Shown here piece after piece: positions 2,820 to 17,236 of a stretch of 20,667 bases of DNA. The stretch is taken from IMG/VR virus record IMGVR_UViG_3300032299_000477, positions 1-20,667 of that record; one strand, 5' to 3'. The notes under the pieces are model-generated. The model was not told the origin of the DNA, searched no databases, and saw only the letters and a program-made list of their open reading frames with translations. The translations under genes and the position numbers were made by a program. This stretch comes from a virus. Numbering within the stretch: position 1 is the first letter of the stretch; every line of letters begins with the position of its first letter.

Positions 2820-3101
2820 ATGTGGAAAACACTCGCCATCTGGCTCACCAATTTGAGTTTGCGTTTCTTGATGACGCAAAAGGAGTACGCCTGTTTCAGG
2901 GAGGCGTTGAGGTTTGCCGGGGAGAACAACACGGTGGCGAGGGAAACGAAGTACATCGGGAAGGTGAAGCACCTGCTATCCGTCAACCGCTCGATCAAGC
3001 GCATTGTAGAGGAGGGTCGGGATCGGGACGAGATTGTGGACGCTGTCGTGCATCTGGCCGTTGCGTTAAAGTATCTGGAGGGTAGGGGTCGTGAGTCTTG
3101 A
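2820..3101 (+). CDS. Small helical basic protein, unknown function
   Basis: A 93-residue protein preceded by GGAGG (2804-2808). Residues 1-18 are rich in Trp, Leu and Phe with few charges and may be an amphipathic or weakly membrane-associated helix. The rest is strongly helical and charged (Y-I-G-K-V-K-H-L-L, I-V-E-E-G-R-D-R-D-E-I-V). The last 11 bases overlap the start of the XhlA-like gene, implying coupled expression. Overlapping frames on the minus strand (2700-2972 and 2813-3004) are weaker because they lack start signals and oppose the operon. It could be a lysis accessory protein or a small virion component; no family was recognised. Confidence 0.6.
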   Translation: MWKTLAIWLTNLSLRFLMTQKEYACFREALRFAGENNTVARETKYIGKVKHLLSVNRSIKRIVEEGRDRDEIVDAVVHLAVALKYLEGRGRES

Positions 3102-3345
3102 CGAGATCCATGATCTTCGGGAAAAATTCGGGTCGATGGCCGAGCGGCTGGCTAGGATGGAAGAACGCCAAGTTACCCTGATCGGGATGGTGGAACGCTC
3201 CCTATCCAGCTTTGGCGACCTGTCCAATAGGGTGACTTCCCTGGAACACCTTAAAACCAAGATGCTCCTTGTGGCAGGCTCGATTGGTGCTATTGTCAGT
3301 GTGGTCTGGGATGCCGTCCGCTCCAGACTTACCCCAGGAGGATAA
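3091..3345 (+). CDS. XhlA/holin-like coiled-coil membrane protein
   Basis: An 84-residue protein starting at GTG 3091, nine bases after GGAGG (3077-3081). Residues 3-55 form an amphipathic heptad-like helix (L-D-E-I-H-D-L-R-E-K-F, then R-M-E-E-R-Q-V-T-L, then L-S-N-R-V-T-S-L-E). Residues 57-76 are one hydrophobic segment (M-L-L-V-A-G-S-I-G-A-I-V-S-V-V), followed by a basic tail. This cytoplasmic coiled-coil plus C-terminal membrane anchor is the layout of the hemolysin XhlA family and related holin-associated phage proteins, which help open the inner membrane at lysis. No endolysin gene is adjacent. Other single-span phage membrane proteins share the layout, so lysis is a likely but not certain role. 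Confidence 0.6.
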   Translation: MSLDEIHDLREKFGSMAERLARMEERQVTLIGMVERSLSSFGDLSNRVTSLEHLKTKMLLVAGSIGAIVSVVWDAVRSRLTPGG

Positions 3346-3970: not shown

Positions 3971-5485
3971 ATGGCTATTAAATTCAATCGCTCCCAGACC
4001 TTTGCCACCAACGGCACGGTGACTGCCGCCGGGTTGCACAACCTGATTGACGGCACGGACATCTATCAGGCGTTAATCACCGACCAGACCAACCTTACTT
4101 CGGTTGGCTCTGCCGACGAGCTATTGATTGCCGATGCGGATCTGACCGCAAATGACGCGCCTCGCGCCGTTACGGTAAACGAGTTGTTTGAGGATGCGCT
4201 GACGATCAGCACCTACACCAACGCCAATATCAATAACATTTCCTACGGCACATCCACCGGCACTCGGATTGTTTCCACCAATGCCTCGATCACGACAGGA
4301 ACGATCCCGAATCTTACCTCTAGCACGGCCAGCATCACCATCGGAACCATCCCGACCCTAACCGCCGGAACCACGACATCGACCGCCGCCAACATCACCA
4401 ACGGAACGATCCAGACTCTTACCTCCAGCACTGCGACGATTACAGGCGGAATTAGTAGCACTTCTGGAACGATACCAACCCTAGTTGCAACAACCCTCAT
4501 TACCACAGGCACAGGCACAGCCGCAACCCCAGCAATCGTTCCAACAGGCGATACTAATACAGGCATATTCTTCCCCGCCGCCGACACGATTGCGGCGACT
4601 ACGCAAGGCACCGAACGACTCCGTATTGATTCGAGTGGTCGAGTTGGGATTGGGGTTGCACCATCAAACTACAAACTTGAGATTGATGGTACTGGGGCAA
4701 ATGGCGGATTTGTAGCAGGAGGATCATTAAATGGTGGTCAGTCTGGTGGTGATTATGACAGTATAGGATATAATTTCAGGCCAACGAACTCAAGCGATGT
4801 ATATAACTACAACTTAAACGATACTTCATCAAGAATTGAATTTTATAACGGCGGTTTTCTTTTTAAGACTGCATCATCTGGAATTGCTGGGAATGCGATA
4901 ACCTACGCAGAACGCCTCCGTATTGCCTCTGCTGGTCAAATCGGAATCGGTGGAGCAAACTACGGAACAAGCGGTCAGGTTCTAACAAGCAATGGAGCGG
5001 CTGCTGCTCCTAGTTGGCAGGCTGCTGGAAAAATTCTTCAGGTTGTAAGCGCAACAACTTCTTCAGTTGTAACCTGCGGAACCACAATTCCGTGGGACGA
5101 CACAATCCCACAAATAACAGAGGGCAACGAGGTTCTAAATCTTACAATTACACCGCTTTCCGCAACATCGGCTCTTTATATTAAATTTGATGCCAGTGGT
5201 TCAGCAAGCGGAGCCGTGAACAATGCGGCTACTATCGCATTTTTCAAGGATTCTGTAGCAAATGCGATTTATGCAACACAAGTTCACTTTTGGAACGCAA
5301 TTGGTTATGGAAACAAATTTAATGCAAGCTACAAGGAAAACTCATCATCCACAACATCAAGAACATATCGTGTTAGGGTCGGGGCAGATTCTCCAACTAT
5401 TTATATAAATGGCAATGGTTCTGGAGCAAGAAGGTACGGGGGCGTAAGCACAGCTATTCTTGAGATATGGGAGGTTGAAGTATGA
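3971..5485 (+). CDS. Tail fibre protein with repeat shaft
   Basis: A 504-residue fibre protein. The N-terminal 75 residues (F-N-R-S-Q-T-F, then G-L-H-N-L-I-D-G-T) look like the part that docks on the tail. Residues 85-195 carry imperfect G-T-I-P-x-L-T repeats. At about 197-230 comes a segment common in environmental phage fibres: D-T-N-T-G-I-F-F-P-A-A-D-T-I-A followed by G-T-E-R-L-R-I-D-S-S-G-R-V-G-I-G. A second copy, E-R-L-R-I-A-S-A-G-Q-I-G-I-G, occurs near 314-327, bracketing a variable insert. The last 150 residues form a jelly-roll-like head that would bind the host surface. The DNA turns AT-rich after about 4680, so the receptor-binding part appears to have a different history from the shaft. 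There is no S74 autoprotease or chaperone motif. Confidence 0.8.
   Translation: MAIKFNRSQTFATNGTVTAAGLHNLIDGTDIYQALITDQTNLTSVGSADELLIADADLTANDAPRAVTVNELFEDALTISTYTNANINNISYGTSTGTRIVSTNASITTGTIPNLTSSTASITIGTIPTLTAGTTTSTAANITNGTIQTLTSSTATITGGISSTSGTIPTLVATTLITTGTGTAATPAIVPTGDTNTGIFFPAADTIAATTQGTERLRIDSSGRVGIGVAPSNYKLEIDGTGANGGFVAGGSLNGGQSGGDYDSIGYNFRPTNSSDVYNYNLNDTSSRIEFYNGGFLFKTASSGIAGNAITYAERLRIASAGQIGIGGANYGTSGQVLTSNGAAAAPSWQAAGKILQVVSATTSSVVTCGTTIPWDDTIPQITEGNEVLNLTITPLSATSALYIKFDASGSASGAVNNAATIAFFKDSVANAIYATQVHFWNAIGYGNKFNASYKENSSSTTSRTYRVRVGADSPTIYINGNGSGARRYGGVSTAILEIWEVEV
4298..4507 (+). repeat. Imperfect in-frame repeats in fibre shaft
   Basis: Four units begin GGAACnATnC at 4298, 4343, 4403 and 4466, giving spacings of 45, 60 and 63 bases, all multiples of three. 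At protein level each begins G-T-I-P/Q-x-L-T/V, followed by Ser/Thr runs ending in I-T-x. The first and third units share the nearly identical stretch encoding L-T-S-S-T-A. Such in-frame repeats fit a beta-solenoid shaft whose length can change by recombination. Confidence 0.75.
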
Positions 5486-5694: not shown

Positions 5695-6393
5695 ATGACC
5701 CTCTCCGAAATCGCCCAATACGCAGGCGAGAAGGTCGGGAAGACTGATGCCGATACGCTGACCTTCCTCCAGAAAGCCGCAAGCTTGGCTTACCGCCGGG
5801 TCTGGAACTTTGCCCCCTGGCGCGAGACTGTCACCAGTTCCACCTACTCGGTCGGGACCAACCGCACCATTACCCTCGGAACCAACGTGGAGACTCCGCT
5901 CTCCGTATCTTATGACCAATCCGAAGTTGAACCCATCGACCTTGCCACCATCATCAGCCAAGACGCTGATCTGCTCGAAGACACCCGCACGGGTACTCCG
6001 GTGCTGTATCACTTTACTGGCCGCAATACGAGCGGAGTTGCACAGCTTGATCTGTATCCGCGATTGGCGGATACTGGAACCGTAAGTCTGCGGGTGGTGG
6101 AGAAGCTGAAATGCCTTACACGCACCAACATCATTGTGGACTTCCCGCCGACCACGCAGGCGTTGGGTGACGAGCTTCGCCTGCCCCATGTTCACCAGGT
6201 CGTGCTTTCGCTTACCCACGCCGATGCCCTAGAGCGTGAGCGGCAATACGCCAAGGCGCAGTCGGTCGTTCAGACCGCCAATGCCGACCTTGCGGCGATG
6301 GCTAATTACGAACTGAGTCAGGTTGGCGGGATAAAGCAGATCACTCCTTCCAGCTTAGGCGACCTTTCCACCGAAGAAATTACCGCCTCCTAA
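5695..6393 (+). CDS. Head-tail adaptor / tail tubular A-like protein
   Basis: A 232-residue protein just after the chaperone-like gene, at a sharp return to GC-rich DNA. The helical N-terminus (I-A-Q-Y-A-G-E-K-V-G, then L-T-F-L-Q-K-A-A-S-L-A-Y-R-R-V-W-N-F-A-P-W-R-E) followed by beta strands and then a long C-terminal helix (residues 165-205, L-P-H-V-H-Q-V-V-L-S-L-T-H-A-D-A-L-E-R) is the architecture of podovirus adaptor proteins such as the T7 gp11 or P22 gp4 type, which form the ring below the portal. The residue pattern R-V-W-N-F-A-P-W-R is typical of such adaptors, where the N-terminal helices are followed by a conserved W. The stop overlaps the nozzle gene by one base, which strengthens the connector assignment. 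Direct homology was not tested. Confidence 0.6.
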   Translation: MTLSEIAQYAGEKVGKTDADTLTFLQKAASLAYRRVWNFAPWRETVTSSTYSVGTNRTITLGTNVETPLSVSYDQSEVEPIDLATIISQDADLLEDTRTGTPVLYHFTGRNTSGVAQLDLYPRLADTGTVSLRVVEKLKCLTRTNIIVDFPPTTQALGDELRLPHVHQVVLSLTHADALERERQYAKAQSVVQTANADLAAMANYELSQVGGIKQITPSSLGDLSTEEITAS

Positions 6394-10852: not shown

Positions 10853-11629
10853 ATGCCATTAGATCCAAACGATCCACTTATTCCATTGCCGTGGCAGATG
10901 GATAGAATTAGGGCGTATCGCGCAGGCAAGGAATTGGCTGCTGAAGAAGATGCGCTTAAAATGCAGAAGCTTCGACTTGATGTTGAGGAAAAGTTATCAG
11001 AAAGACCAGAAAGCAAAATAAGCAAAGCAGCAGAGCTTTATCAGGCAATGGAGCAGTTGAAGCAAGAGCAAGAAGGAATACCTTTTGAAGCTGTGGCAAA
11101 ACAAGCCGCACTAGACGAAAACATGAATTTACTTGAGGCAAACAAACAACAGGGGTTATATAATATCGAGCAGGCTGGTTTAAGGGGAAAGATGGCTGGA
11201 ATTGAAGCTCAATTAACTGGTCAAAAGAGTCTGGTTCCTACCGAGCAATACAAATATCAAGGAGTTTCCGGTACCGCATTAGGTGGTCAAGGAGCAGCGC
11301 AATTATCAAATGCAAGAAGGAATGTCTTCCAGGCTGATTACAATGATTTTTATGATATGGCAAAATTCCAAGGAGCAGATGACCAGCAGGCCCACCAGAT
11401 TGCCATACAAAAATCAGAACAAAAAGCATTGAAAAGCCAAGACAAAATCGTAATTGCGCTTCCTGGTGGTGGGACATTTGCTTCCACGCCAGAAAAAATA
11501 AATCAAATGCGTGATGACCCAGGCACTCCACAAGAAATTAGGGACGCAATTATAGCCCAATGGGGAGCCGGAAATAAACAAACCGCCCAAAGCTGGTTAA
11601 GCTCAAGAATACCAAAAGCGGTTAAATAA
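10853..11629 (+). CDS. Helical virion protein, likely ejection component
   Basis: A 258-residue protein starting three bases after the previous stop, without a strong ribosome binding site. Residues 14-135 are almost all amphipathic helix (A-A-E-E-D-A-L-K-M-Q-K-L-R-L-D-V-E-E-K-L, then A-M-E-Q-L-K-Q-E-Q). The C-terminal half contains A-L-P-G-G-G-T-F-A-S-T-P-E-K-I (about 196-210) and a helix ending in W-L-S-S-R-I-P-K. No enzyme motif, signal or membrane segment is seen. It lies between two larger internal protein genes, in the same AT-rich block as the end of the gene before and the start of the gene after. It is probably one of the ejected or core-stack proteins; no specific family is recognised. 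Confidence 0.6.
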   Translation: MPLDPNDPLIPLPWQMDRIRAYRAGKELAAEEDALKMQKLRLDVEEKLSERPESKISKAAELYQAMEQLKQEQEGIPFEAVAKQAALDENMNLLEANKQQGLYNIEQAGLRGKMAGIEAQLTGQKSLVPTEQYKYQGVSGTALGGQGAAQLSNARRNVFQADYNDFYDMAKFQGADDQQAHQIAIQKSEQKALKSQDKIVIALPGGGTFASTPEKINQMRDDPGTPQEIRDAIIAQWGAGNKQTAQSWLSSRIPKAVK

Positions 11630-11630
11630 C

Positions 11631-14600
11631 ATGGCGGAATTTATTTCCCGCCTTCCAGCGCAGGGTTCTGAGCCGCAAATTCAAGAACCTCCATCTTGGG
11701 ATGAAATCAAATCATCCGATGAATACAATGGATTATCCTATCCAGAGCAATTAAATCTAGCAAAACAATGGGGAAAGGAAGCAAAGGATTACGCATCCAC
11801 ATTGCCAGAATACTCACCAGAACAAGACGCACAGATTGACGATTTTGTGGCCAACGATGCCGTTGAGGTTCCGGCCAACATTAAACGTGCCTCGGCTGCG
11901 GCTGGGTTGGTTAAGGGTGCGGCTGCTGGATTAGGCGCGCTGGCTGGAGGATTGGGAGGTGCTGCCCTTGGTGGCCCTGTTGGCGCGATTGGAGGTGGCG
12001 TTGGCGGAATGATTTTGGCAGGCGAAGCTGCCGAGGCTGGCTTGCAGAAATTTGTTCCTGCCGTAGCCGAATCTCGCAAGTTTGCGCCAGGGTATGCAAC
12101 GGCTGGAGAATATGCTCCGTCTGTTGCTATGGCTGGATTGGGTGTGCGGGGTCTTGTTACAGCAGGAAAGGCCATGGCTCGCGAGCTTGGCACAAAGAAG
12201 GCCGTTGAGGAGATTGCCAAGACTGCGGCTGTTTCCGGTCTTGTTTCAGGTGGTGTCGGAACCGCAACCAGGTCAGTGCTTGGCGCAGAAGTCACGCCCA
12301 GGACAGTTGCGGAAGATGTGCTTTTCGGTGCCTTGTTTGCAGGTCTTGGAAGCGGCGCACGGGTTCAGGGCTACAACAGGGAACAAGCACTCAATCTAAA
12401 CGAAAGGGTCAAGTCAGGTCGCGCATCCGAGGCGGAATACAGAGATTGGCAAGGTATTCTTGCGGAGGCCGAAAGGACGCAGGCGCGGGGGATTGAAGGC
12501 GCAGGAAGAATGGAGGTTGAGCTTGGCGGGCGTCCAGTTTTCCAAAAGACCGAGCTTGTCACACCAGAAATGCGTCCGGTTCCAACTGGCGAATTGCCAG
12601 CACCAAGACCCACAGGCTTGCCGGAAGCCGGAGTGCGCGGAACAGTTCGAGGAACCCAGGCAGATACCGCAGAGATGCAGCGGCGCGGTGTCACAAGCGA
12701 GATGCAGGAAAGTCTTGTTAATCTTGACGAGCCAGCGACAATAAGAAAGATATTTTCAGTTGAATCACAAGGAATCAATCGTGAAGCCATCGTACCTGTT
12801 CCCAGAACTATTGTCACTGAACCTCCTCGCGGACCTCGCGAAGCAGAACTTGTGCGCGAAGGTGAAATCATTACGCCTCGCAGAGTTCTTCCGACCACAC
12901 AAAGGGCCGCTCTCCCAGAACGGGCGGAGATGGAGGTTCCTGCGCCAACAACCGAGCCTGCGGCTCCAGTTGGCCAGCCAATTCCGCGACCTATGGGCGG
13001 AAGGGGCGGAGAAGCTGGATTCGTCTCCTCCGACATAACAAAGTTAGTTAAGAATTACATGACATCCGCAGGCGCACTGACGGATGATATGGCTGAAACA
13101 TTATTGGCGCAGAAGTACAACAAGGCACAGCTTGAATATGAAGCCAAGTTTCGCCTGAGAGATTTTAATAGGGCAGTGCTTGAGGAAACTGGGTCAAGCA
13201 AAATGTCTCCAGAACTTATGCGATCTGTTAGTGATTATATCAATGGAAAATCAACAGACACATCAGCAATACCTCCAAAGGTTGTTGAGGCAGCAAACAA
13301 ATTTAGGTCGTTTCTAGATCAGGGGGCAAGAAAGATTATTGCTGAGCCTGGTCTGCTTACGCCGAAGCAGGCGCAAACCGTGGAAGCGAATATCGGATCA
13401 TATTTAAGCCGATCCTATGAAAAGTTTGACAATCCAAACTTTACGATGGATATGCTTGAGCAACGAGACAAAACAAGATTTGCCAAGAGTGTTGATTTTG
13501 TAAGAAGGCAATTTTTGGACAGGGCAAAGGAAGAGGTTCAGACAGCAGCCGAAGATGGAAGGCCGCCAATTGAATGGTTGAGGCAAATTAACGAAACTCA
13601 ATCCGTGCCTCGCGAGCGGCTTATGGGCGAAGTTCAAAGAATTATTGAAAGCGGCGGTGCGATGGAGGCAAGAAGAAGAGGCGAAACCATGAGGTTTACA
13701 CCTGAGTCATACGGAATCTCGAAAGATCTTCAAGGGCTAAAAAAGCGAAAAGAGATACCAGAAGAGATACGGTATCTGATGGGTGAATACGAAGACCCAC
13801 GTGTGAATTTCCTAAGATCAGCGCTAAAACAAATCAATCTTTACGTTGACCAAAGAACACTTACAAATTTGCGAGATCAGGGATTTGAGGCTGGCCTGTT
13901 TTTTGACTACCCAGCCCCAGGCACGGTTGAAATAGCACCCAAGGGAAGCGAGGTAATGTCACCGCTTAATGGAGTATATGCAGCTCCAGACGTTGCGGAA
14001 GCATTGAATAATTTTGATGTTTCCTACAGTTCGGGAGTGCCTGGATTGAGAACATTTGCAAAAATCAATGCGGCAATTAAGTGGTCAAAAACCGTGGGAT
14101 CGCTAAGAAGTCAGGCAAGAAACTTTATCTTCAACATACCAATTCAAATTCAAAACGGAAATTTTGACTTTTTGACTGGAAAGGATTTTGGAAGAACAAC
14201 GCAGATGATCATGTCGGACTACGGGATTGGCTCGGACACTCAGGCCATACGATCCGAGCTAAGGAGGGCAATCGGGCTTGGTGTTGTCAACAATGCAAAA
14301 TTCAACGAGATGGAAGCCATGATGAAAGATGCGGCTATGGATCGTGGGGATATACAAAATTTCGTGGAAAGGCATTTCTACAAATATGTCGCCAAGCCTG
14401 TTTCGGCTGGGCTTGATTCGGCGTTTGCAATCAAGGATTTTATGGACTTTATGTACCGAGCGGGTGACAATTTCCACAAGATAGCGCTATGGAAGTATCG
14501 CACGCGCGCGCTAATGGATGGCAAGAAAATGAGCAAGGAAGATGCCGAGGTTGAGGCGGCTGATTATGTCAACAACAGCTTTTCAACCTACGAAAAACTT

Positions 14601-15725
14601 GGAAGGTTGATGAAGTCGTTAAGGGCAAACCCGTTTTCAAAAAACTTTATTTCCTGGAACGCCGAAAGGGTAAGAAATTCTTACCACATATTAAAACAAG
14701 CCTCAAGGGATCTAAAAGATCCAGGCATGAGAAAATATGGGATTAGGACAATTATTGGAAATATTATTTCTGCCGGAATTTTTGCGACCACTCGGCTTAT
14801 GGCTGCTTATGCTTTTGGATGGACTTTGGAAAAAATCAAAGAATTGAACAAACTTGCTCCCAATTATCAAAAATCAGGAACGCTCCTTCCGGTTGGGTAT
14901 GATCCAAAGAAGAAAGAGGTGACATACATTGATCTTTCTTACTCAGATCCATTTGATATTTTCAGGCAACCGATCAACGCTTTTATGTCCGAGGAATCCC
15001 TGGACAAGGCTTTGATAGGTGCGATAGCAACATTTTTTGGAGACTTCCTTGGACTCAGCATTGCAACCGAAACTGCTGCTGGGATCATTAAAAACGAGCG
15101 TGCTGACGGAACACAAATTGTGAATCCGAAGGCAAGTCCAACCGTCAAGCTGATGAAGTATTCCGAATATGCCGGAAGGGTGATTGAGCCGGGTACAATA
15201 TCCGACATGAGGCAAATGTATTACGCAATCAAGGGCGAGCCTGATCCGTTCTTTGGGCCGAGAGCGCCTGTGCCTTCCATTGCCGGAATGGCTTCATCTG
15301 CCGCAGGATTCCGAGTGCAAAAACTGAATGTGGCCGACGAGGTTTTCAAAAAGGCCAGAAGCTTCAATAGCAACATGGGATTGTCAACAAGGCTGTTTAC
15401 GTCCGAACTTGTGGCCAGAGGAACTCCAGAAGAACGCAGACTTGCCGAAGGCAAACAGGAGATGGATCGCGCCAGAATAGAAACATTCAAGGATATGCGA
15501 AAGGTATACAATGCGGCTCTATCCTGGGGGCTTACATCATCCGAGGCTGCGGCGGAAATGAAGCGTGGTGGCATGAGTTCATCAAATATAGGTGCTGTCA
15601 TTACCGGTAGAATCCCGCGATATGAACCAAGCCGTAAGATGATGCGCGAGCTTTACCGTCAATCCCCGGAGGATTTTGAAAGAAGGCAAGCCATAACAAG
15701 GGAATTATTGCAGGAGTCTGAGTAA
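11631..15725 (+). CDS. Giant internal virion / DNA ejection protein
   Basis: A 1364-residue protein, the largest in the window. Residues about 85-135 are a glycine-zipper-like hydrophobic stretch (G-L-V-K-G-A-A-A-G-L-G-A-L-A-G-G-L-G-G) that could enter a membrane. About 300-470 is Pro/Arg-rich and probably disordered. From about 470 a helical region begins, containing W-S-K-T-V-G-S-L-R-S-Q-A-R-N-F (near 820), reminiscent of the 'NP..H.RN..SN' motif of large polyvalent phage proteins, and N-P-F-S-K-N-F-I-S-W-N (near 998). Another hydrophobic segment lies near 1037-1063. Size and place match podovirus ejection proteins of the T7 gp16 kind, injected to span the envelope. No N-terminal transglycosylase is visible; the next gene may supply that activity. 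The first 200 bases of the gene are AT-rich. Confidence 0.75.
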   Translation: MAEFISRLPAQGSEPQIQEPPSWDEIKSSDEYNGLSYPEQLNLAKQWGKEAKDYASTLPEYSPEQDAQIDDFVANDAVEVPANIKRASAAAGLVKGAAAGLGALAGGLGGAALGGPVGAIGGGVGGMILAGEAAEAGLQKFVPAVAESRKFAPGYATAGEYAPSVAMAGLGVRGLVTAGKAMARELGTKKAVEEIAKTAAVSGLVSGGVGTATRSVLGAEVTPRTVAEDVLFGALFAGLGSGARVQGYNREQALNLNERVKSGRASEAEYRDWQGILAEAERTQARGIEGAGRMEVELGGRPVFQKTELVTPEMRPVPTGELPAPRPTGLPEAGVRGTVRGTQADTAEMQRRGVTSEMQESLVNLDEPATIRKIFSVESQGINREAIVPVPRTIVTEPPRGPREAELVREGEIITPRRVLPTTQRAALPERAEMEVPAPTTEPAAPVGQPIPRPMGGRGGEAGFVSSDITKLVKNYMTSAGALTDDMAETLLAQKYNKAQLEYEAKFRLRDFNRAVLEETGSSKMSPELMRSVSDYINGKSTDTSAIPPKVVEAANKFRSFLDQGARKIIAEPGLLTPKQAQTVEANIGSYLSRSYEKFDNPNFTMDMLEQRDKTRFAKSVDFVRRQFLDRAKEEVQTAAEDGRPPIEWLRQINETQSVPRERLMGEVQRIIESGGAMEARRRGETMRFTPESYGISKDLQGLKKRKEIPEEIRYLMGEYEDPRVNFLRSALKQINLYVDQRTLTNLRDQGFEAGLFFDYPAPGTVEIAPKGSEVMSPLNGVYAAPDVAEALNNFDVSYSSGVPGLRTFAKINAAIKWSKTVGSLRSQARNFIFNIPIQIQNGNFDFLTGKDFGRTTQMIMSDYGIGSDTQAIRSELRRAIGLGVVNNAKFNEMEAMMKDAAMDRGDIQNFVERHFYKYVAKPVSAGLDSAFAIKDFMDFMYRAGDNFHKIALWKYRTRALMDGKKMSKEDAEVEAADYVNNSFSTYEKLGRLMKSLRANPFSKNFISWNAERVRNSYHILKQASRDLKDPGMRKYGIRTIIGNIISAGIFATTRLMAAYAFGWTLEKIKELNKLAPNYQKSGTLLPVGYDPKKKEVTYIDLSYSDPFDIFRQPINAFMSEESLDKALIGAIATFFGDFLGLSIATETAAGIIKNERADGTQIVNPKASPTVKLMKYSEYAGRVIEPGTISDMRQMYYAIKGEPDPFFGPRAPVPSIAGMASSAAGFRVQKLNVADEVFKKARSFNSNMGLSTRLFTSELVARGTPEERRLAEGKQEMDRARIETFKDMRKVYNAALSWGLTSSEAAAEMKRGGMSSSNIGAVITGRIPRYEPSRKMMRELYRQSPEDFERRQAITRELLQESE

Positions 15726-16474
15726 TGGCACGCTTTGACATATCTGGTTCCGCCAGCAGGCAGACCGGCTTGGATCGGCAAATGACAAACGATTCAATCC
15801 GGCGCGAAATTGAGCCAAGGCAAAAGGTTGAGGCTCAAAAAGCCTTCGTCGCTCCGCCGCAACCCAATCCACAAATTTCAACATTGACGGAATACGAAAG
15901 GCCGGAACCCATGAAAACACAATCCAATTTGGATGATTTACCGCTTCCCATGCAGACCGTAAATTGGGAAGCGCGGAGAGACAAACAGGGCAACCCGATT
16001 GTATACCAGTTGCCAGCCGGTGACATGGGGGGTAAGTTTGAGGTGGCTGGAATCAACGACCGGTACCATCCTGAAGCATTCAAAGCTATCTCGTCGCTCC
16101 CAGCGGAAGAAAGAGCGGAAGCGGCTGCGGAATATATCCGAAGCTACACCGCCCCATTCGTCTCCAAACTGCCCAAACCCATGCAGGCATTCGCGCAGGA
16201 TCTCGCGTTCAATCGAGGGCTGGGCGGCGCAGCACGATATATCCAGCAGGGATTGAGAAGTCTTGGCCAGAATGTTGCGGTTGACGGGAAGCTTGGACCC
16301 AAAACCATGGCCGCAATCAATAGCGTACAGCCACGCGCCTTGATGCAGGCTGCAAGCGAGGCGCAGCGCAATGACGAATACGCAAAAGCAAGAGCTAATC
16401 CTGCAAGAAAGGCTTTATTGCCTGGGCTAGAAAACAGGATTAGAAACAGATTTTCAATTCTTGGAAATGTTTAA
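15725..16474 (+). CDS. GH108/PG-binding-like virion muralytic protein
   Basis: A 249-residue protein with CAGGAG (15711-15716) before an ATG that overlaps the previous stop by one base. Residues 1-75 are polar linker. From about 80 the sequence resembles GH108-type N-acetylmuramidase domains: E82 in N-W-E-A, then D100-M-G-G-K-F-E-V-A-G-I-N-D, standing where such enzymes have Glu and then D-x-G-G...G-I. Next come F-A-Q-D-L-A-F-N-R-G-L-G-G-A-A (156-170) and V-D-G-K-L-G-P-K-T-M-A-A (186-197), the latter being the peptidoglycan-binding domain 3 pattern. It ends R-I-R-N-R-F. It would cut or bind peptidoglycan, most likely as a virion-borne lysin opening the cell wall during DNA entry, since it closes the ejection operon. 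It could also be the lysis endolysin, as no other lysin gene lies in the window. Confidence 0.72.
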   Translation: MARFDISGSASRQTGLDRQMTNDSIRREIEPRQKVEAQKAFVAPPQPNPQISTLTEYERPEPMKTQSNLDDLPLPMQTVNWEARRDKQGNPIVYQLPAGDMGGKFEVAGINDRYHPEAFKAISSLPAEERAEAAAEYIRSYTAPFVSKLPKPMQAFAQDLAFNRGLGGAARYIQQGLRSLGQNVAVDGKLGPKTMAAINSVQPRALMQAASEAQRNDEYAKARANPARKALLPGLENRIRNRFSILGNV

Positions 16475-16818
16475 GGCTTATCCATATAACTGCCAACGCT
16501 AATAGTTATTCCGTTTCTTCCAGAGTAGGCATTCCCGGTTCTAACAATTATGTCTTTATTGGATACAAATGAATTTCCAGCCCTTACAACCGCACGGTTG
16601 TCTTCGCTAAAATATGTGTTTCCAGCCCTTGTCGCAATTCCGCGTGAAGATACATAGGAATTTCCTGCTTTTGTAATAATGTCATGGCTTCCAACATAAG
16701 TATTTCCAACGCGCACAAATTGTCCGCGCCCACCATAAACAGCCGCAACATAATCATCGAAATCATCACCCATCACCGGTGCCACCAGCACCGCCATCAG
16801 GAATAGTATTGCTTTCAT
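16471..16818 (-). CDS. Secreted repeat protein, unknown function (only minus-strand gene)
   Basis: A 115-residue protein. The start at 16818 is preferred over an ATG at 16836 because a GGAG lies 9 bases upstream and because M-K-A-I-L-F-L-M-A-V-L-V-A-P-V-M-G then forms a clean N-terminal signal peptide with cleavage expected near residue 17. Residues 36-106 are five tandem repeats of 14-15 residues with consensus R-A-G-N-S/T-Y-V-S-S-x-x-I-I-T, and a sixth partial copy follows. There are no cysteines. Its stop codon overlaps the stop of the muralytic gene tail-to-tail by 4 bases, and only 37 bases separate it from the divergent nuclease gene. Composition is AT-rich. The family is not recognised. 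A moron-type gene acting in the periplasm or on the cell surface is an inference. Confidence 0.72.
   Translation of the reverse strand: MKAILFLMAVLVAPVMGDDFDDYVAAVYGGRGQFVRVGNTYVGSHDIITKAGNSYVSSRGIATRAGNTYFSEDNRAVVRAGNSFVSNKDIIVRTGNAYSGRNGITISVGSYMDKP
16501..16713 (-). repeat. Five 14-15 residue tandem repeats in secreted protein
   Basis: Reading on the minus strand, units begin at residues 36, 50, 64, 79 and 93, each starting R/K-x-G-N followed by an aromatic (Y/F), polar residues and a closing I-x-T or equivalent. Unit lengths are 14, 14, 15, 14 and 14 residues (42-45 bases). The DNA copies are diverged, so this is an old repeat held by protein structure rather than a recent slippage product. 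Confidence 0.8.
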
Positions 16819-16855
16819 GCGTAAAAACTCCAGCATCTGCGCCGCCTAGTCAAGC

Positions 16856-17236
16856 ATGAAATTATCCGCCAGACAAATCGGTGCAGTCGGCGTGGCCCGC
16901 GTGGCCGGTGCGCTGTTCCGCAACGGGTATAGCGTGCTGACCCCGATGGAGGATTTTTCCAGCTACGACCTGGTGGCCGAGCGCAACGGAAAGTTTCACC
17001 GAATCCAGATCAAGACCACCAGCAAGCCGGAACACGACAAACTTCATTATCGTTTTATGACGAGTTCCGGGCATCAGGGAAAGGTGATGTACACCAAGGC
17101 CAAGGTTGATTATATTATTTGCTGGGCGATGGATGAGGATTTATTCTGGATTCTAAAGCCGCATGAATGTCGCACCACCACCAAGAAGTTTTACCCAAAT
17201 TCAGGTTCCTCATGGCGAATCATAAACGACCTCTGA
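16856..17236 (+). CDS. PD-(D/E)XK nuclease, QxK type
   Basis: A 126-residue protein starting at ATG 16856. An N-terminal helix (I-G-A-V-G-V-A-R-V-A-G-A-L-F-R-N-G-Y) is followed by S-S-Y-D38-L-V-A-E and then H-R-I-Q51-I-K53-T-T. A D followed at about 13 residues by Q-x-K is the signature of the PDDEXK_5 / I-Ssp6803I-like group of small PD-(D/E)XK endonucleases, which includes intron-homing and resolvase-like enzymes. The Glu usually found in the first helix appears to be absent (the position reads V-A-R-V-A). The C-terminal half (Y-I-I-C-W-A-M-D-E-D-L-F-W-I-L) is the typical strand pair that follows the core. It is the first gene of the nucleic-acid module, divergent from the minus-strand gene. 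DNA cleavage is likely; the exact substrate is unknown. Confidence 0.74.
   Translation: MKLSARQIGAVGVARVAGALFRNGYSVLTPMEDFSSYDLVAERNGKFHRIQIKTTSKPEHDKLHYRFMTSSGHQGKVMYTKAKVDYIICWAMDEDLFWILKPHECRTTTKKFYPNSGSSWRIINDL

Follow-up and report, generated by a model that had tools for sequence, protein, structure and literature searches.

A fixed, reversed gene for a secreted repeat protein with exchanged mature classes at a module boundary of an uncultured tailed phage

The reversed gene and its surroundings

The window, by which we mean the entire stretch of 20,667 nt that was analysed (positions 1 to 20,667 of IMG/VR virus record IMGVR_UViG_3300032299_000477), contains a lone minus-strand gene, which had been picked out as such in a first-pass annotation made from the sequence alone. 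The ORF is real, and all other plausible genes of the window, as judged by tiling from the sequence, lie on the plus strand. The features referred to below are as follows.

3971–5485, plus strand: tail-fibre candidate (phrog_9942 and phrog_18345, tail fibre), used in the covariation test
11631–15725, plus strand: large virion protein of the left block (phrog_22602, E-value 4.2e-25)
15725–16474, plus strand: endolysin-like gene, convergent with the reversed gene (PG_binding_3, PF09374, E-value 9.4e-9; phrog_315, endolysin, E-value 2.7e-10)
16471–16818, minus strand: secreted repeat protein gene, 115 codons plus stop (from the ORF, a GGAG motif and ~50 relative loci)
16474–16767, minus strand: mature part, 98 aa, class m4; the swapped cassette, with a predicted helix, 12 short strands and five [RK]xGNx[YF] repeats
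16768–16818, minus strand: signal peptide MKAILFLMAVLVAPVMG, signal peptidase I type by eye, conserved as DNA
16775–16863, no strand: conserved DNA anchor (divergent gap, Shine–Dalgarno sequence and first codons of both genes)
16819–16855, no strand: divergent gap between the two start codons, 37 nt (36–44 nt in further relatives)
16856–17236, plus strand: PD-(D/E)XK nuclease gene, divergent from the reversed gene, ATG at 16856 (PF11645, E-value 5.9e-18)

In the ORF listing, the minus-strand frame spans 16471–16836 from its first ATG. The second ATG, at 16818, is preceded by GGAG 8 nt upstream and specifies a product of 115 aa, of which 17 residues form the signal peptide and 98 the mature part. 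We rejected the start at 16836 because the six intervening codons (MLEFLR) behave like a conserved 5′ UTR: they are not conserved as protein, and in the alignment of relatives L002 reads WVETFY at this position whilst other lineages carry unrelated sequence. As such, the sequence points to 16818 as the likely start, rather than 16836 or 16855. The range 16471–16855, originally assigned to the gene, does hold it but is not itself an ORF, as its right end takes in the 37 nt gap. The other junctions described at that stage, a tail-to-tail overlap of stops (the endolysin-like gene stop at 16474 overlaps that of the reversed gene at 16471–16473) and a divergent gap of 37 nt, were found as described. 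A chance frame was rejected because the gene is conserved in dozens of relatives, with a dN/dS of ~0.1 in several comparisons. A promoter scan returned no convincing sigma-70 site for this gene; a GATAAT box ~45 nt upstream of its ATG is a visual lead only.

The gene had also been called AT-rich, which holds for the mature part (G+C 0.41, against 0.51 for the window) but not for the signal (0.53); nor is the low value unique in the window, as the gene at 1913–2674 has a G+C of 0.39. By eye, this latter gene specifies a LamG/ConA-like virion protein; it had no match in the relatives examined and may have been inserted into the virion operon recently. Three short ORFs elsewhere in the window, namely 2661–2816 (small lipoprotein look, spanin-like), 3091–3345 (C-terminal transmembrane segment, holin- or spanin-like) and 1317–1490 (a second lipobox protein by appearance), are possible lysis genes distant from the endolysin-like gene.

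The reversed gene sits at a real module boundary, as had been proposed. Variation in the large virion protein goes with variation in the endolysin-like protein (Mantel r 0.77), and the nuclease-side genes likewise covary with one another (r 0.57–0.93), whilst no joint variation was found between the left virion block and the nuclease-side block (r about −0.06 to 0.11). In close relatives the virion genes at 10853–11629 and 11631–15725 are replaced by unrelated types and covary with the endolysin-like gene; the large virion protein occurs in several types of about 1012–1610 aa, and its replacement is out of step with the classes of the secreted protein described below.

Fixed locus, conserved signal and exchanged mature part

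Scans of IMG/VR with the protein, its 5′ DNA, both neighbours and three divergent relatives yielded about 50 usable loci. Wherever the junction is present the gene order is constant: the endolysin-like gene, the reversed gene, whose end lies only a few nucleotides away, a gap of ~36–44 nt and the PD-(D/E)XK nuclease gene. The secreted protein gene is present at all 17 loci that were reached by way of the nuclease and that include about 100 nt or more of the junction, so the locus is fixed and does not behave as an optional moron. Of the earlier suggestion of a moron with a periplasmic or surface role, then, the envelope role remains likely, but the sense of optional cargo does not fit. Frame disruption in relatives, proposed as a test of the gene, came out in its favour: the only disrupted copy is L006 (2335–2616), where a deletion removes the last two repeats and leaves a short altered tail, and all other complete copies are intact. 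No close relative was found in the cultured phage and plasmid collections, and nothing in the phage collection is more than a distant relative of the group of uncultured tailed phages to which the window belongs.

Every complete copy among the ~50 relatives has a signal peptide, in agreement with the first reading of this protein. That of the window, MKAILFLMAVLVAPVMG, has no lipobox cysteine, cleavage is predicted by eye between ...APVMG and DD, and the mature part contains no cysteine. Among 15 phages, DNA identity is highest at the divergent gap and start codons, with a mean pairwise sliding identity in the anchor of ~0.95 at −45 to −31 and 0.90–0.95 at −15 to +14 relative to the ATG. For 17 dereplicated phages the signal DNA covaries with PDDEXK (Mantel r 0.58), whereas the mature part does not (r −0.11, p 0.86). 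Comparison of these phage sequences shows the signal peptide to belong to the nuclease-side module. One relative carries a hybrid signal, MKAILFLMAVLVMASRCMA (L018:3775–3832), in which the exchange point seems to fall within the signal itself. The anchor signal was found in no bacterial genome of the genome collection, which was scanned with one signal pattern only.

Aligned to its relatives with blastn, the window is covered across the nuclease module and the signal; homology then ends at ~16754–16783 and often picks up again at ~16455–16480, where the endolysin-like gene ends. When clustered by single linkage at 50 % identity, the mature parts of 50 phages fall into 12 classes. A clear example is the pair L006 and L017, which are ~90–98 % identical on both flanks and 97 % identical in the signal, but only 37–50 % identical, that is unrelated, in the mature part. 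Mapped onto a tree of the nuclease module (PDDEXK and the RusA-like protein), the classes require 22 changes, compared with a minimum of 11 and a shuffled mean of 25.8, and L006 and L007, with identical rows in that tree, differ in class. Conversely, single classes stand behind different signals and are shared by two phage lineages: class m1 (the L060 type) is paired with at least three kinds (MKTIIILLMMVAGVWA, MKAIITMTLTAMLMASVMA and MKAILIAMAVLVAPVMA); class m2, present in both lineages, with two; and class m3 also with two, in one case behind the L060 signal (L153). Comparison of the loci thus shows that the mature part falls into discrete classes, 12 or more in number, and that these have been exchanged through recombination between the signal DNA and the final part of the endolysin-like gene. 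As read from the sequences, this swapped allele cassette, mounted on a signal that belongs to the neighbouring module, is the main feature of the locus, and it was absent from the first-pass annotation.

Within classes, several comparisons gave a dN/dS of ~0.1 (0.12 against 2.08; 0.06 against 0.47), and the protein sequence is therefore constrained; the classes appear mostly to be under purifying selection internally. Between classes, synonymous sites are near or at saturation, with the signal DNA differing little. Taken as a whole, a signal that stays with its neighbouring genes and a mature part exchanged among very different versions would be expected of a protein matching a changing partner in the bacterial cell envelope.

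We found little that the class follows within the phage. For the 17 dereplicated phages the mature part showed a weak association with the endolysin-like protein (r 0.21, p 0.02; r 0.21–0.25 over tests) and with the large virion protein (r 0.23, p 0.014), and its correlation with tail-fibre tip similarity was r 0.13 (p 0.058, n=20). One fibre-tip group holds classes m1, m3 and m9, and tip groups cut across classes. The fibre candidate used here (3971–5485), whose receptor-binding role is itself a prediction, is the nearest to the secreted protein gene, at 11 kb; its N-terminal ~160–200 aa are conserved, and its tips are exchanged in about ten groups of relatives. A scan of 14 genes gave weak values for those at 5695, 8252 and 9119 (r 0.4–0.5, n 8–11, p about 0.02, uncorrected), which we do not count as shown links. 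Correlations in the larger set come out too high, because classes m1 and m2 were sampled by searching for them. We rejected a coupling between class and any of four candidates (large virion protein, endolysin-like protein, nuclease module and fibre tip), having found nothing beyond these weak values.

Repeats and predicted structure of the mature part

The five 14-residue repeats recorded at the outset are borne out: [RK]xGNx[YF] motifs begin at mature residues 19, 33, 47, 62 and 76, spaced 14–15 residues apart, and at period 14 there are 22 self-matches (z 6.6), a value reached by no shuffle. Nor did profile searches alter the earlier statement that no family is recognised; the secreted protein had no match in Pfam, NCBIfam or PADLOC, and no convincing family in PHROG. 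We also ran the structure prediction that had been suggested for the 98-residue mature part. AlphaFold2 returned a confident model (pLDDT 94.1, pTM 0.85) with one N-terminal helix and 12 short strands. For class m3, which is ~25 % identical to the class of the window, it predicted a helix and 11 strands in the same places (pLDDT 87.9); the two models are not independent, because the runs share alignment rows. Judging by the short turns and the barrel-like rows of the structure comparison, the strands would run antiparallel as a meander.

Foldseek searches of the PDB and BFVD with the model gave nothing significant (best E-values 0.2 and 0.12, respectively). The best VIA scores, Z 4.5 and 4.6, were to the phage lyase CpeT for two different classes, and are below VIA's own trust threshold. 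Given non-significant Foldseek results and VIA scores of Z 4.6 or less, we claim no fold family. A match to PknD (1rwi, E-value 0.0065) was set aside as it looks like generic repeat resemblance. Of the lysozyme inhibitors (PliC/MliC), Brucella PliC (4mir) appeared only as a non-significant Foldseek row (E-value 2.6), and Pfam searches gave no match.

Proposed role and comparison with known systems

Taking these observations together, we propose, with a probability of roughly 35 %, that the gene specifies a protein secreted to the periplasm, where it would bind a polymorphic target in the envelope and most likely block superinfecting or competing phages. On this proposal, a fixed and independently oriented gene would supply the periplasm of infected cells with a small, soluble protein of beta repeats, as predicted from its signal, with expression probably early and from a putative divergent promoter region shared with the nuclease gene. 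The mature part would serve as the binding module, its specificity set by class, and its target would be a polymorphic component of the host envelope and not one of the tested proteins of the phage. We prefer a host target to one in the virion of the same phage, since class does not strictly follow the nuclease module, fibre tip, large virion protein or endolysin-like protein. Binding would most likely stop superinfecting or competing phages at the envelope, a benefit that we take to be the likeliest in view of Llp and Rtp45. Selection for classes that are rare, or that newly match a target, would account for the pool of alleles that the phages share. Speaking against exclusion are the lack of a lipid anchor and of either linkage or clear covariation with a receptor-binding gene, and the weak association with left-block virion genes leaves some probability to a target in the virion.

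The same envelope location would also suit a protein that works in the periplasm against an enzyme or defence of the host envelope, such as a lysozyme-like hydrolase, a protease or an envelope-stress sensor; it would protect infection or set lysis timing, and its classes would match variants of that host protein. This is possible, although we hold it to be the less probable account: the protein is secreted, beta-rich and adjoins the endolysin-like gene, its classes vary independently of nuclease module and tail tip in the phage itself, and lysozyme- and protease-inhibitor folds (PliC; U-Omp19, 7mhw) are among the weak, non-significant structural rows, but these rows are generic (best Z 4.5, no Foldseek match below E 0.1), and the class does not match the phage's own endolysin-like protein, which is 98 % alike in L006 and L017 despite their unrelated mature parts. 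This last pair also weighs on a lysis accessory (spanin, antiholin or endolysin regulator) serving the neighbouring lysis gene, for which the adjacent endolysin-like gene with its overlapping stop and the presence of a signal peptide would speak. Here, however, the class changes whilst the endolysin-like gene stays 98 % the same, the strand is opposite to that of the virion operon, and the mature part has a predicted beta fold with no lipobox or transmembrane segment; neither the lipobox of an o-spanin nor the transmembrane segment of an i- or u-spanin is present in the secreted protein sequence, and we regard such a role as improbable.

An exclusion factor based on self-recognition, blocking a specific virion protein of same-type phages during ejection into the periplasm, much as Ltp acts on the tape measure protein, would fit the predicted location, through which ejected proteins pass, and the weak association with left-block virion genes. 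It is nevertheless unlikely: the window and G001 share a mature class but have unrelated large virion proteins, whilst in G006 and G017 the left-block proteins are 97–98 % alike (97 % for the virion proteins) and the mature parts unrelated. We give as little credence as to a lysis role to a surface or secreted protein for masking or host benefit, derived from bacterial 14-residue repeat proteins (GNT...SDG type) and exported past the outer membrane. Similar proteins with a signal and repeats do occur in Burkholderiales (L125 and L126) and a Helicobacter pullorum prophage (L108), and hhalign against single bacterial-type repeat sequences gave probabilities of 72 and 66 % for two of them. The third value, however, was 26 % (L126), the likeness is confined to the repeat motif, we recognised no outer-membrane export signal in the secreted protein, and we noticed no integrase anywhere in the window; benefit to the host is worth little to a phage that is strictly lytic.

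Returning to exclusion at a polymorphic envelope target, a bolder version of this proposal, which we consider doubtful, is that of a specificity-type locus, at which old, discrete classes would be pooled across lineages by balancing selection and would set which infected cells exclude which phages, independently of receptor-binding type. If true, phages would have here their own equivalent of an incompatibility or exclusion-group system. More generally, this uncultured phage group appears to keep a dedicated and often shuffled gene whose product would act on the cell envelope after entry, and its class pattern could tie metagenomic alleles to exclusion or host-range rules, which to our knowledge are poorly known outside coliphages.

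Among known systems, T5 Llp (PMC9586334) and Rtp45 (PMC12685063) are small exported phage proteins that block entry. Together with the T1-type Cor, they resemble the window protein in being small phage proteins with a signal for export to the periplasm, and provide a working model for an envelope exclusion factor. In contrast, they are acylated lipoproteins encoded beside a receptor-binding gene and matched to its receptor, whereas the window protein is predicted to be soluble, has no lipobox cysteine, is encoded between the endolysin-like and nuclease genes and has a class independent of the fibre tip (r 0.13, as above). We rejected membership in this group because both of its defining features that were examined, the lipid anchor and the linkage to a receptor-binding gene, are lacking. 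Ltp of Streptococcus phage TP-J34, which reportedly acts on the tape measure protein (title of a reference cited in PMC11480721), is likewise an exported phage protein of repeated units, and excludes other phages; it belongs, however, to a Gram-positive system and is a lipoprotein whose two repeated domains are helix-turn-helix, whilst the window protein is predicted to be all-beta after one short helix and has no lipobox.

The bacterial 14-residue repeat proteins (L125, L126 and L108) share with it a signal peptide followed by G-N-T-x-[YFI] and a glycine turn per 14 residues, but their repeats are more regular and they have no DDFVGG-type N-terminal helix. The relation is one of motif and a weak profile score only. 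The two from Burkholderiales (L125:682–1032 and L126:2941–3276) are secreted proteins of the RIGNTTxxSDGTTYN type, apparently without a family name; the genome scan that found them used a self-made consensus, and two matches show existence, not frequency. Finally, plasmid exclusion groups have specificity types (PMC11493245), and Eex, TraS, TraT and Sfx resemble the present locus in offering discrete specificity types of one function. These serve conjugation, however, and their specificity, where shown, follows a cognate protein of the same element, a pattern that the phage gene does not display. What is new here, in comparison, is that mature classes from a common pool are freely exchanged at a locus that is itself fixed.
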